Part shown: piece after piece, positions 4,980 through 28,991 of the stretch
How the letters are laid out: each line of letters opens with the position of its first letter
Position numbering within the stretch: the first letter of the stretch is position 1
Program-made: the position numbers and the translations under genes
DNA from: Streptomyces sp. NBC_00663
GTDB taxonomy: Bacteria; Actinomycetota; Actinomycetes; Streptomycetales; Streptomycetaceae
Assembly (NCBI RefSeq): GCF_036226885.1
Contig: NZ_CP109027.1
Span: 7,874,001 to 7,938,000 of the forward strand
Direction of reading: 5' to 3'
DNA: 64,000 bases
Notes under the pieces: generated by a model
What the model was told of the DNA's origin: nothing
The model's input: the letters and a program-made list of their open reading frames with translations, nothing else
The model's database searches: none

Positions 4980-5010
4980 CCGCCGCTGTCCACGATGCGG
5001 ACAGCGGCGG
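4980..5010 (+). terminator. Hairpin terminator after the HAD gene
   Basis: This is a perfect 12-bp stem (4980-4991 with 4999-5010) with a 7-base loop, followed by TTGG. It separates the HAD gene from the metNIQ leader. Confidence 0.8.
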
Positions 5011-5295
5011 TTGGTAAGGACCATACGTCTGCTTTACTGATTCCATGACCACGACGAGCAGCCGCACCCTTGCGACCGAGGCGACCATGACGCCCGGTGC
5101 TCGCTGTATGTGTCGAATGTGCGCCTTCTAGAGGGCCCCCGCACCACCCCCTGAGCCTCGCGCCCCGAAGCGAGCAGCTGTGGCATGTCCGTACGTGTTT
5201 CGCCGTACGTGACCGTGCTGCCCCGCGCACACCCGTTCCTCTCGTACCAGGGCACACCCACGCCCGCGTACGAACTCGACAGTGATGGAATCCCA
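5011..5295 (+). promoter_or_regulatory. Candidate attenuating leader of metNIQ
   Basis: A weak promoter (TTGGTA at 5011, TTTACT at 5033-5038) would start transcription at or next to the ATG at 5045. A 28-codon frame ending in CMCRMCAF follows. Two hairpins come next: a 5-bp stem at 5157-5161/5170-5174 and a 6-bp stem at 5190-5195/5204-5209. About 160 bases then remain before metN. The order of peptide, hairpins and transporter suggests sulphur-amino-acid attenuation. This is inference. Confidence 0.4.
5045..5131 (+). CDS. Short Cys/Met-rich leader open reading frame
   Basis: This is a 28-codon frame whose last eight residues are CMCRMCAF, giving three Cys and two Met just before the stop. 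An internal ATG at 5087 has GAGG 5 bases upstream and would give a 14-residue peptide with the same tail. If transcription starts at 5045 the longer form is leaderless. It lies 164 bases before metN, the ATPase of a methionine importer. Polycysteine leader peptides are known to act as cysteine sensors in mycobacteria. This frame looks like the same idea applied to a methionine transporter, but translation is unproven. Confidence 0.42.
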   Translation: MTTTSSRTLATEATMTPGARCMCRMCAF

Positions 5296-6327
5296 GTGAT
5301 CACCACAACGGGCCTCACCAAGGTCTACCGCTCACGCGGCCGAGAGGTCACCGCCCTCGACGGCGTCGATCTCCACGTCCGCGAAGGCGAGGTCTACGGC
5401 GTCATCGGCCAGTCCGGCGCCGGCAAGTCCTCCCTCATCCGCTGCGTCAACCTGCTGGAGCGCCCCACCGCCGGCACGGTCACCGTCGCCGGCCGGGACC
5501 TCACCGCCCTCGCCGGGCGCGGCCCGCGGGCCGGCAAGGAACTCCGCGAGGCGCGCAGCCGTATCGGCATGGTCTTCCAGCACTTCAACCTGCTGTCCTC
5601 CCGGACCGTCCAGGACAACATCGAGCTGCCCCTCGAGATCCTCGGCAAGTCCGGCAAGGAGCGCTCGCGCAAGGCACTGGAACTGCTCGACCTCGTCGGG
5701 CTGGCCGACAAGGCGAAGGCCTACCCGGCCCAGCTCTCCGGCGGCCAGAAGCAGCGCGTCGGCATCGCCCGCGCCCTGGCCGGCGACCCCAAGGTCCTGC
5801 TCTCCGACGAGGCCACCAGCGCCCTCGACCCGGAGACCACCCGCTCCATCCTCCAGCTGCTGCGCGACCTCAACCGCCAACTGGGCCTGACCGTCCTGCT
5901 CATCACCCACGAGATGGACGTCGTGAAGTCGATCTGCGACTCCGCCGCCCTCATGGAGAACGGCCGCATCGTCGAGTCCGGGACGGTGAGCGAACTGCTC
6001 GCGACCCCCGGCTCCGAGCTCGCCACCGCGCTCTTCCCGGTCGGTGGCGAGGCCACCGGCGCCGACCGCACCGTCGTCGACGTCACCTTCCACGGCGAGG
6101 CCGCGACCCAGCCGGTCATCTCCCAGCTGTCGCGCACCTACAACATCGACATCTCCATCCTCGGCGCCGCCATCGACACCGTCGGCGGCCTCCAGGTCGG
6201 CCGGATGCGCATCGAACTGCCCGGCCGCTACGAGGACAACGTCGTGCCGATCGGGTTCCTGCGCGAGCAGGGCCTCCAGATCGACGTCGTCGACGAGCCG
6301 GTGCTCGTGAAGGAAGGTGCCAAGTGA
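5296..6327 (+). CDS. metN: D/L-methionine ABC transporter ATPase MetN
   Basis: This 343-residue ATPase powers methionine import with MetI and MetQ. The Walker A motif GQSGAGKSS is at 38-46, the signature is LSGGQKQRVGIARAL, Walker B reads VLLSDEATSALD, and the switch is ITHEMDVV. The C-terminal segment of about 80 residues is the NIL domain, which binds methionine and inhibits transport in the E. coli homologue. The GTG at 5296 gives the normal MetN start. A frame extends upstream to 5185, but those residues are unlike the family. It overlaps metI by four bases (GTGA). Confidence 0.95.
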   Translation: MITTTGLTKVYRSRGREVTALDGVDLHVREGEVYGVIGQSGAGKSSLIRCVNLLERPTAGTVTVAGRDLTALAGRGPRAGKELREARSRIGMVFQHFNLLSSRTVQDNIELPLEILGKSGKERSRKALELLDLVGLADKAKAYPAQLSGGQKQRVGIARALAGDPKVLLSDEATSALDPETTRSILQLLRDLNRQLGLTVLLITHEMDVVKSICDSAALMENGRIVESGTVSELLATPGSELATALFPVGGEATGADRTVVDVTFHGEAATQPVISQLSRTYNIDISILGAAIDTVGGLQVGRMRIELPGRYEDNVVPIGFLREQGLQIDVVDEPVLVKEGAK

Positions 6328-7049
6328 CCTGGTCCGAGATGCAGCCCCTGCTGTCCCAGGCGTGTTGGGACACCCTCTACATGGTCGGCTGGTCCACCGT
6401 CATCGCCGTCGTCGGCGGCCTTCCGCTCGGTGTCCTCCTCGTCCTCACCGACCGGGGCGGGCTCCTCCAGAACGTCGTCGCCAACAAGGTCATCGGTCAG
6501 GTCGTGAACGTCGCCCGGTCGATGCCGTTCATCATCCTGATGGTCGCGCTGATGGGCTTCACCCGCTCCATCACCGGCACCACCATCGGCCGTGAGGCCG
6601 CGATCGTGCCGCTCGCCATCGGGGCGATCCCGTTCTTCGCGCGCCTCGTCGAGACGGCGGTTCGCGAAGTGGACGGCGGACTCGTCGAGGCCGTGCAGTC
6701 GATGGGCGGCAACACCTGGACCATCGTCCGCAAGGTCCTCGTACCGGAGTCGCTGCCCTCCCTGATCGCCAGCACCACGACCACGATCGTGGCGCTGATC
6801 GGCTACTCCGCGATGGCCGGCACCGTCGGCGCCGGCGGCCTCGGCGACATCGCCATCCGCTACGGCTACCAGCGCTTCGAGACCCAGCTCATGTGGATCA
6901 CCGTCGCGATCCTCGCGGTCGTCATCTCGCTGATCCAGTTCGCCGGCGACATCGCGGCCCGCTCGCTGCACAGCCGCGGCGGCAAGACGGGTCCGGCGCC
7001 GAAGCTGCGGCTGCTGAAGGCCGCGACGGCCGACACCAAGACCGTCTGA
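6324..7049 (+). CDS. metI: Methionine ABC transporter permease MetI
   Basis: This 241-residue permease has about five membrane spans and the EAA loop EVDGGLVEAVQSMGG that docks on MetN. The GTG start overlaps the metN stop codon, with AAGGAAGG upstream, so translation is coupled. Family knowledge puts two copies in the MetN2I2 complex. A short 10-bp repeat and a new ribosome site lead into metQ. Confidence 0.95.
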   Translation: MTWSEMQPLLSQACWDTLYMVGWSTVIAVVGGLPLGVLLVLTDRGGLLQNVVANKVIGQVVNVARSMPFIILMVALMGFTRSITGTTIGREAAIVPLAIGAIPFFARLVETAVREVDGGLVEAVQSMGGNTWTIVRKVLVPESLPSLIASTTTTIVALIGYSAMAGTVGAGGLGDIAIRYGYQRFETQLMWITVAILAVVISLIQFAGDIAARSLHSRGGKTGPAPKLRLLKAATADTKTV

Positions 7050-7139: not shown

Positions 7140-7973
7140 GTGCGTAACACCGCAAAGCTCACGACCGCAGTCCTCGCCGCCGGCGCCCTCACCTTCGGGC
7201 TCGCCGCATGCGGCTCGGAGAACGGCTCCGCGGGTTCCACCGACACCAGCGGCCCGCTGGTCGTCGCCGCGAGCCCCACCCCGCACGCCGAGATCCTCAA
7301 CTACGTCAAGGACAACCTGGCGAAGAAGGCGGGCCTCGACCTGGAGGTCAAGGAGTTCACCGACTACGTCACGCCGAACACGGCGACGGAGGACGGCTCG
7401 GTCGACGCCAACTACTTCCAGAACCAGCCGTACCTCGACGACTTCAACAAGAAGAACGGCACCCACATCGTGCCCGTCGTGACGGTCCACCTGGAGCCGC
7501 TCGGCCTCTACTCCCACACGGTGAAGAGCGCCGACGCGCTGAAGAGCGGCGCCACCGTCGCGGTCCCGAACGACAGCGTCAACGAGGCCCGTGCGCTCAA
7601 GCTCCTCGCCGCCAACGGGATCATCACGCTCAAGGACGGCGTGGGCAACGAGGCGACCCCCGCCGACATCACCAAGAACCCCAAGAACCTCAAGTTCAAG
7701 GAGCTGGAGGCGGCCCAGACCCCGCGCTCCCTGGACGACGTCGACGCGGCCGTCATCAACGGCAACTACGCCATCGAGGCCGACCTCTCGCCCGCCGAGG
7801 ACGCCCTCGTCCTGGAGTCCGCGACGGACAACCCGTACGGCAACTTCCTCGCGGTGAAGGACGGCAACGAGGACGACCCGCGCGTGAAGAAGCTCGCCAA
7901 GCTCCTCACCTCCGACGAGGTCAAGAAGTTCATCGAGGACAAGTACGACGGTTCCGTCATCCCGTCCTTCTGA
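7140..7973 (+). CDS. metQ: Methionine-binding lipoprotein MetQ
   Basis: This is a 277-residue NlpA-family lipoprotein that delivers methionine to MetNI at the outer face of the membrane. The lipobox is LAAC with the lipidated Cys at residue 24. The mature part starts LVVAASPTPHAEIL and contains the typical DANYFQNQPYLD segment. The GTG at 7140 follows AAAAGGAAAGG. It is the last gene of the operon, with a strong hairpin 17 bases after the stop. Confidence 0.94.
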   Translation: MRNTAKLTTAVLAAGALTFGLAACGSENGSAGSTDTSGPLVVAASPTPHAEILNYVKDNLAKKAGLDLEVKEFTDYVTPNTATEDGSVDANYFQNQPYLDDFNKKNGTHIVPVVTVHLEPLGLYSHTVKSADALKSGATVAVPNDSVNEARALKLLAANGIITLKDGVGNEATPADITKNPKNLKFKELEAAQTPRSLDDVDAAVINGNYAIEADLSPAEDALVLESATDNPYGNFLAVKDGNEDDPRVKKLAKLLTSDEVKKFIEDKYDGSVIPSF

Positions 7974-21788: not shown

Positions 21789-21860
21789 TGGACGATACTG
21801 GGATTGAACCAGTGACCTCTTCCGTGTCAGGGAAGCGCTCTCCCGCTGAGCTAATCGTCC
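21789..21860 (-). tRNA. tRNA-Val (GAC), copy 1
   Basis: It is 72 nt, with acceptor stem GGACGAT/ATCGTCC and anticodon stem CTTCC/GGAAG around the loop CTGACAC (anticodon GAC). The discriminator is A and CCA is not encoded. It is identical to the copy at 21997. Confidence 0.96.
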
Positions 21861-21892
21861 TCGGGGTCACAGTCGAGACTGTGGATCTTGCG

Positions 21893-21964
21893 TGCGCGAT
21901 ACTGGGATTGAACCAATGACCTCTTCCGTGTCAGGGAAGCGCTCTCCCGCTGAGCTAATCGCGC
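21893..21964 (-). tRNA. tRNA-Val (GAC), copy 2, different acceptor stem
   Basis: The body and anticodon (GAC) match the flanking copies, but the acceptor stem is GCGCGAT/ATCGCGC and one T-stem base differs (ATTGG), giving a T-G pair. All stems remain paired. CCA is not encoded. Confidence 0.95.
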
Positions 21965-21996
21965 GGGTCAGGCCTTCGATGATCTCGAAGATCCAG

Positions 21997-22068
21997 TGGA
22001 CGATACTGGGATTGAACCAGTGACCTCTTCCGTGTCAGGGAAGCGCTCTCCCGCTGAGCTAATCGTCC
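21997..22068 (-). tRNA. tRNA-Val (GAC), copy 3
   Basis: It is 72 nt and base-for-base the same as copy 1. It is four bases from the tRNA-Cys gene upstream on the minus strand. Confidence 0.96.
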
Positions 22069-22072
22069 TTGG

Positions 22073-22143
22073 AGGTGGAGACGGGATTTGAACCCGTGTA
22101 GACGGCTTTGCAGGCCGTTGCCTCGCCTCTCGGCCACTCCACC
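22073..22143 (-). tRNA. tRNA-Cys (GCA)
   Basis: It is 71 nt, with acceptor GGTGGAG/CTCCACC, anticodon loop CTGCAAA (GCA), and discriminator U as expected for Cys. CCA is not encoded. Confidence 0.96.
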
Positions 22144-22184
22144 AGGAGTGTCGGGGGTTCGGGATGATCCCCCTTGCTCTTCCG

Positions 22185-22257
22185 AGCGAACGACGAGGTT
22201 CGAACTCGCGACCTCAACCTTGGCAAGGTTGCGCTCTACCAACTGAGCTACGTTCGC
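22185..22257 (-). tRNA. tRNA-Gly (GCC)
   Basis: It is 73 nt, with acceptor GCGAACG/CGTTCGC, anticodon loop TTGCCAA (GCC) and discriminator U. It is the first gene of the minus-strand tRNA operon. Confidence 0.96.
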
Positions 22258-28919: not shown

Positions 28920-28991
28920 GGGCGATTAGCTCAGTGGGAGAGCGCTTCGTTCACACCGAAGAGGTCACTGGTTCGAACCCAGTATCGCCCA
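28920..28991 (+). tRNA. tRNA-Val (CAC), copy 1
   Basis: It is 72 nt, with acceptor GGGCGAT/ATCGCCC, anticodon loop TTCACAC (CAC) and discriminator A; CCA is not encoded. A TAATGT -10-like element lies at 28901-28906. It is identical to the gene at 38933. Confidence 0.96.

Follow-up and report, generated by a model that had tools for sequence, protein, structure and literature searches.

Conserved leader ORF overlapping a structured RNA upstream of metNIQ in Streptomyces: a candidate cysteine- and methionine-responsive attenuator

The closest described relative of the element reported here is metL of Streptomyces lividans TK24 (SLIV_29928, MSTTSDRTPATEATTTPGARCMCRRMCAF), which was published in 2021 as a leaderless ORF located before metNIQ (PMC8079986). 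That study, which concerned one species, lists metL as an attenuator of metNIQ, names Met and Thr as the notable, controlling residues of the peptide, and describes several hairpins downstream with no clear terminator. Leaderless leaders of polycysteine type are also known from mycobacteria (Canestrari et al. 2020, as cited in PMC9031893).

We analysed a window of 64,000 nt from the genome of Streptomyces sp. NBC_00663, in which a 28-codon frame precedes metNIQ (Table 1). A preliminary description of this DNA had drawn attention to the frame and suggested that a mixed Cys/Met leader of metNIQ would be new. The frame is present as described and has homologues genus-wide, and its reading as a leader peptide has held up, as the tail with Cys and Met and the frame itself are retained throughout Streptomyces. 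Novelty could not be upheld, the S. lividans ortholog being already in print. Homology of the peptide, the promoter geometry and the position directly upstream of metN place the frame in the metL ortholog group, and a peptide identical to that of S. lividans was found before metN at two of the loci that we collected.

Table 1. Coordinates of features in the metL–metNIQ region, numbered from the first nucleotide of the window
Feature	Position	Strand	Basis or remark
Palindrome TGTCCACGATGCGGACA, candidate NdgR (IclR-family) operator	4987..5003	.	42 nt 5' of the leader ATG
Extended -10 element TGC-TTTACT	5030..5038	+	6 nt 5' of the ATG; leaderless geometry
metL leader peptide ORF, MTTTSSRTLATEATMTPGARCMCRMCAF, stop TAG	5045..5131	+	Homologous frame across the genus; extended -10 upstream
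Predicted three-way-junction RNA within the ORF	5051..5107	+	P1 5051-5059/5099-5107; P2 5063-5066/5071-5074; P3 5075-5083/5091-5098, A5079 bulged
Candidate regulatory codons Cys21 Met22 Cys23 Arg24(CGA) Met25 Cys26	5105..5122	+	Codon conservation
Conserved AGGGCCCC immediately 3' of the stop	5132..5139	+	Conservation
Conserved hairpin CTCGC-GCCCCGAA-GCGAG, loop invariant	5157..5174	+	Conservation
Second small hairpin GTACG...CGTAC	5191..5208	+	Without genus-wide conservation
metN, first gene of the operon	5296..6327	+	ABC_tran and NIL domains; start GTG
metI, permease	6324..7049	+	MetI model above its cut-off
metQ, substrate-binding lipoprotein	7140..7973	+	Lipoprotein_9, 331 bits

The domain matches of the three genes downstream of the leader support a MetNIQ-type importer. 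The best match of MetN (VITTTGLTKVYR, read from the GTG at 5296) in the domain search was TIGR02314, yet its score was under the curated cut-off, so the substrate of the importer is the one given by annotation. The metN frame is open upstream as far as an ATG at 5185 (5185-5295), and owing to this open frame the metN of automatic callers may be some 37 codons too long and overlap the leader. Elsewhere in the window, five tRNA genes are clustered on the minus strand at 21789-22257, and two more lie at 28920 and 38933.

A DNA-level search for the metN region covered 199 genomes of the genus, and upstream regions were taken from 110 loci. The homologous frame was present at all 104 Streptomyces loci with a recognized metN in this first set. 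In another sample, a 28-position peptide profile detected the element in 127 of 134 genus genomes. Two of the seven genomes missed by the profile (G301 not among them) carry divergent forms that were found by an RNA model, and metN is absent at E 1e-60 from four others (G232, G270, G272 and G313); all six genus genomes listed without a profile match were thus explained by a divergent form or by the lack of metN. Six further genomes (G044, G022, G079, G110, G112 and G145) contain neither the element nor metN at E 1e-60, giving ten genomes in total that lack both the element and a detectable metN at this cut-off. In G008, the metN match is at a contig end and starts only within the gene. Loss of the element coincides with loss of metN, and the metL element thus travels with metN. 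The conservation of the leader frame is far beyond chance. Among the matches listed, those with an organism name are from Streptomyces throughout. Outside the genus, about 180 actinomycete genomes were scanned with the RNA model and yielded no credible match, and no Cys/Met leader was seen in the part examined of the region upstream of a Catenulispora-like metN.

Comparative evidence establishes that the metL ORF is translated. The motif CGAATG near the end of the frame can be recognized at the DNA level, so that its distance from the ATG is a genuine test of translation. Nine different distances (69, 72, 75, 78, 81, 84, 87, 96 and 99 nt) occurred in 156 loci, and all 156 are divisible by three; a whole number of codons is therefore kept despite insertions. 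In the same comparison, the noncoding distances from the stop codon to the downstream hairpin take all three residues modulo 3. The stop codon is retained and alternates between TAG (108) and TGA (79) in 187 unique ORFs. Insertions in the tail are mostly rich in similar kinds of residue, for example CRLMCRMCAF and CRMCRMCAF, with exceptions such as GARCMPVRAWPSPTGRMCAR. The proposed 14-codon form, starting from an internal ATG at 5087, did not survive the comparison, as this codon is ATG in only 64 of 150 unique sequences and is otherwise mostly ACG or CTG.

Alignment of the regions upstream of metN, as suggested in the preliminary description, confirmed the conserved tail and frame; the synonymous changes that had been expected were largely missing, and the wobble positions are mostly invariant. 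The wobble bases of AGC, CGC, GCG, ACC, GAG, GCG, CCC and GGT are each identical in 63/63 forms, whilst codons 6, 8, 9, 14 and 15 vary, mainly nonsynonymously. We attribute this pattern to overlap of the frame with a conserved RNA structure: the first 63 nt of the ORF encode a predicted three-way junction (P1, nt 7-15 with 55-63; P2, nt 19-22 with 27-30; P3, nt 31-39 with 47-54), the helices and wobble bases of which are nearly invariant, and the variable codons fall in the junction and hairpin loops. With 70 distinct sequences aligned without gaps, 95.1% of cells were paired, against 26-48% when the partners were slid. Compensatory changes were seen at five pairs in the same 70 sequences, a number reached by none of 500 shuffles; the slid controls, however, gave similar counts of two-sided changes (2-5), which makes the covariation supportive rather than decisive. 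The changes stem from few divergent lineages, the clearest being those of L185-L187 (CGC/GCG to CGU/ACG, and GGCG/CGCC to GGCA/UGCC). The ORF by itself folded no better than shuffled sequences (z -0.67), whereas the whole leader did fold better (z -2.34). Taken over the alignment, constraint at the RNA level is evident.

The structure also bears on the peptide. Nucleotide 61, the first of the Cys21 codon, is T in 141 of 150 unique sequences and forms a G-U wobble in P1; as T is kept although C would pair better and encode Arg, this position argues that Cys itself is selected at codon 21. Preservation of a weaker pair for the sake of Cys, together with a frame strictly maintained through insertions, is difficult to reconcile with the junction being a metabolite-binding riboswitch (for SAM, methionine or cysteine, for example) to which the overlapping frame would be secondary. 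Riboswitches are common among methionine genes, metK and metH RNA motifs occur elsewhere in this genome, and the invariant wobbles and nonsynonymous loop variation described above would fit such an RNA. However, the conserved bases lie in helices and nearly all unpaired bases vary, unlike an aptamer, and the leader had no covariance-model match in Rfam 15 at the gathering score or even at E 10. We therefore regard a riboswitch as quite improbable. Identity with a known riboswitch was rejected, as Rfam gave no match and the leader matched neither the metK nor the metH RNA of this genome. The element likewise has no Pfam or NCBIfam match.

The tail of the peptide is the region where the sulphur amino acids accumulate. 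Among 63 unique 28-codon forms, Cys21, Cys23 and Cys26 are retained in 57, 62 and 55, and Met22 and Met25 in 58 and 63. The tails of 163 distinct peptides contain 1-5 Cys (mostly three) and 1-4 Met (mostly two), and none lacks either residue, against averages of 0.8% Cys and 1.3% Met in the genes of this region. Divergent leaders lean towards Cys, as in SARCCRCRMCDC with five Cys and one Met, and Met is perhaps a second signal besides Cys. The short ORF upstream of the operon, translated on the evidence of all 156 loci, and the Cys and Met codons near its end in every tail are features of an attenuator. Two points count against this: the cysteines are interleaved (C-M-C-R-M-C) rather than in a run, with neighbouring Cys only in the divergent leaders L187, L195, L222 and L223, and some tails have only one or two Cys.

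Within the tail, the pair CGA-ATG (Arg24-Met25; 5114-5119) is present in 186 of 187 unique ORFs. Among the Arg codons of neighbouring genes CGA is rare (2.7%), and its constancy at the base level is not accounted for by helices P1-P3 as drawn. The conservation of Arg24 and Met25, which exceeds that of every Cys, would suit a nascent-chain arrest peptide, in which stalling would arise from GARCMCR-M itself, perhaps triggered by redox state or an antibiotic, rather than from tRNA supply. The operon does respond to oxidative stress: in Streptomyces coelicolor under H2O2, metN (5.2-fold), metI (3.5) and metQ (2.3) rise together with the cysteine regulon (PMC4991794), and the Cys residues of the peptide could be sensors. 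Arrest peptides, however, usually hold their spacing to the stall site, whereas metL peptides range from 28 to 38 residues with highly variable tails (compare GARCMPVRAWPSPTGRMCAR and SARCCRCRMCDC), and the conservation of the N-terminal part is explained by the RNA. An arrest peptide is consequently an unlikely account of metL. Three leaders with peptides of 37-38 residues have an in-frame tail insert of 9-10 codons that contains no Cys (MPVRAWPSPTG).

The invariant extended -10 element of the promoter is TGCTTTACT; of 104 loci, 103 carry TTTACT, in each case after TGN and with the ATG 6 or 7 nt away. With this element six nucleotides before the ATG, translation should begin at the first base of the mRNA, and the metL mRNA should thus be leaderless. 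Further upstream, the palindrome listed in Table 1 is conserved at about -42 in nearly all loci, and exact matches to TGTCCRCNATNCGGACA occur at only two places in the genome, upstream of the leader and upstream of leuB. The latter is a known target of NdgR, for which a 15-bp motif was derived by ChIP-seq (PMC4340878). The palindrome fits that motif; the metN operon is absent from the regulon table of the same paper, and control by NdgR is accordingly a prediction. A weaker NdgR-like palindrome lies before cysI in the same genome.

A conserved palindrome of this kind would be expected if the operon were controlled at its promoter by NdgR and redox regulators, the leader serving only to compete or to shield the mRNA by leaderless translation (affecting stability or access of Rho) without amino-acid sensing. 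The requirement of the HbpS-SenS-SenR system for induction in S. coelicolor (PMC4991794) points the same way. This explanation leaves the Cys and Met codons in all 163 distinct tails unaccounted for, as well as the in-frame insertions, and we give it little weight.

Downstream of the stop codon, the two small hairpins noted in the preliminary description fared differently. That at 5157-5174 is conserved, with a compensatory U-A to C-G change in L043 and L049, and is missing in L044 and L063; the one at 5191-5208 shows no genus-wide conservation and was ruled out as a common part of the element. AGGGCCCC may pair with the loop of the conserved hairpin to give a pseudoknot. No intrinsic terminator was found in the leader, the conserved hairpin having no U-run, nor was any conserved structure detected that would sequester the metN start; the approximately 100 nt preceding metN are mostly unconserved, except for the last 20 nt. 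Mutually exclusive pairing downstream of the ORF was not demonstrated as a conserved feature across loci. An alternative pairing of TGCTCGCT (5098-5105) with AGCGAGCA (5170-5177) exists in the window, needs bases that vary, and is not claimed here. Output of the leader via Rho-dependent termination and via control of translation are both possible.

Taken together, these observations lead us to favour, as a probable reading, a genus-wide metNIQ leader in which metL and the three-way junction form a leaderless attenuator that senses charged tRNA-Cys, and perhaps tRNA-Met. In using the term attenuator, we infer which amino acid is sensed, that ribosomes stall, in which direction expression shifts and whether the output is at the level of transcription or translation. 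The leaderless mRNA, the first 87 nt of which would be translated metL, would adopt the three-way junction when the ribosome is absent. Ribosomes would load at the 5'-terminal AUG and translate as far as the tail; with sufficient charged tRNA-Cys (and tRNA-Met), they would reach the stop codon and be released. When either tRNA is short, the ribosome would halt at codons 21-26, helped by the slow CGA codon, and would cover the 3' strands of P1 and P3. Folding further downstream, involving AGGGCCCC and the conserved hairpin, would be altered, more metNIQ would be made and the importer would supply methionine. Methionine can feed cysteine through reverse transsulphuration. The leader thus probably switches the importer on upon shortage of sulphur amino acids. 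The induction of the S. coelicolor operon alongside the cysteine regulon under H2O2 and the recognized Cys leader before cysI in this genome agree with this reading. If this mechanism is true, methionine import is tied to cysteine supply, and through it to the thiol and redox response. The element would then be a compact test case for a leaderless ribosome competing with RNA structure on one sequence.

More tentatively, we speculate that metL represents a Streptomyces-specific kind of attenuator that is outside Rfam, a dual-coded RNA in which the same 63 nt specify a three-way junction, whose folding the ribosome opposes, as well as the N-terminal two thirds of a Cys/Met-sensing peptide. Competition between leaderless initiation, RNA folding and stalling at the Cys/Met codons would then provide the control, with no terminator.

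Like the mycobacterial polycysteine leaders cited in PMC9031893, metL is a short leaderless ORF that carries Cys codons towards its end and lies before sulphur genes; it differs from them in that Met and Arg separate the Cys residues, in the structured RNA over the ORF and in the importer gene that follows. Three metL peptides gave zero matches to the families NF042936 (Ms4527A) and NF042934, and metL shares the leaderless start of that class without its run of consecutive Cys codons. The best reading of this analysis is that metL would work like the mycobacterial Cys leaders without being a member of their families. Such a member is present in the same genome before cysI (L357, ~719-860): the RRHVDL-type leader MSGTGIALVSRRHVDLGRMSSAICPAR matches NF042934 with 33 bits (cut-off 27) and the Ms4527A family below cut-off. 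The cysI leader and metL have in common an ORF with Cys near its end, a sulphur operon and an NdgR-like palindrome upstream, but no sequence similarity. Streptomyces-metK (RF03063) and Streptomyces-metH (RF03076), found elsewhere in this genome, are likewise Streptomyces-restricted structured leaders of methionine genes; metL is matched by neither and, unlike them, contains an ORF. With S. lividans metL, finally, the leader of the window shares gene position, leaderless organization and peptide family. The existence of the peptide is already on record, and the overlapping RNA structure is previously undescribed. Beyond the earlier report, the present comparison adds a genus-wide record in which the leader belongs to essentially every Streptomyces metNIQ operon, Cys codons that are kept and not only Met, and an RNA junction in the frame, so that the same letters hold a conserved fold.
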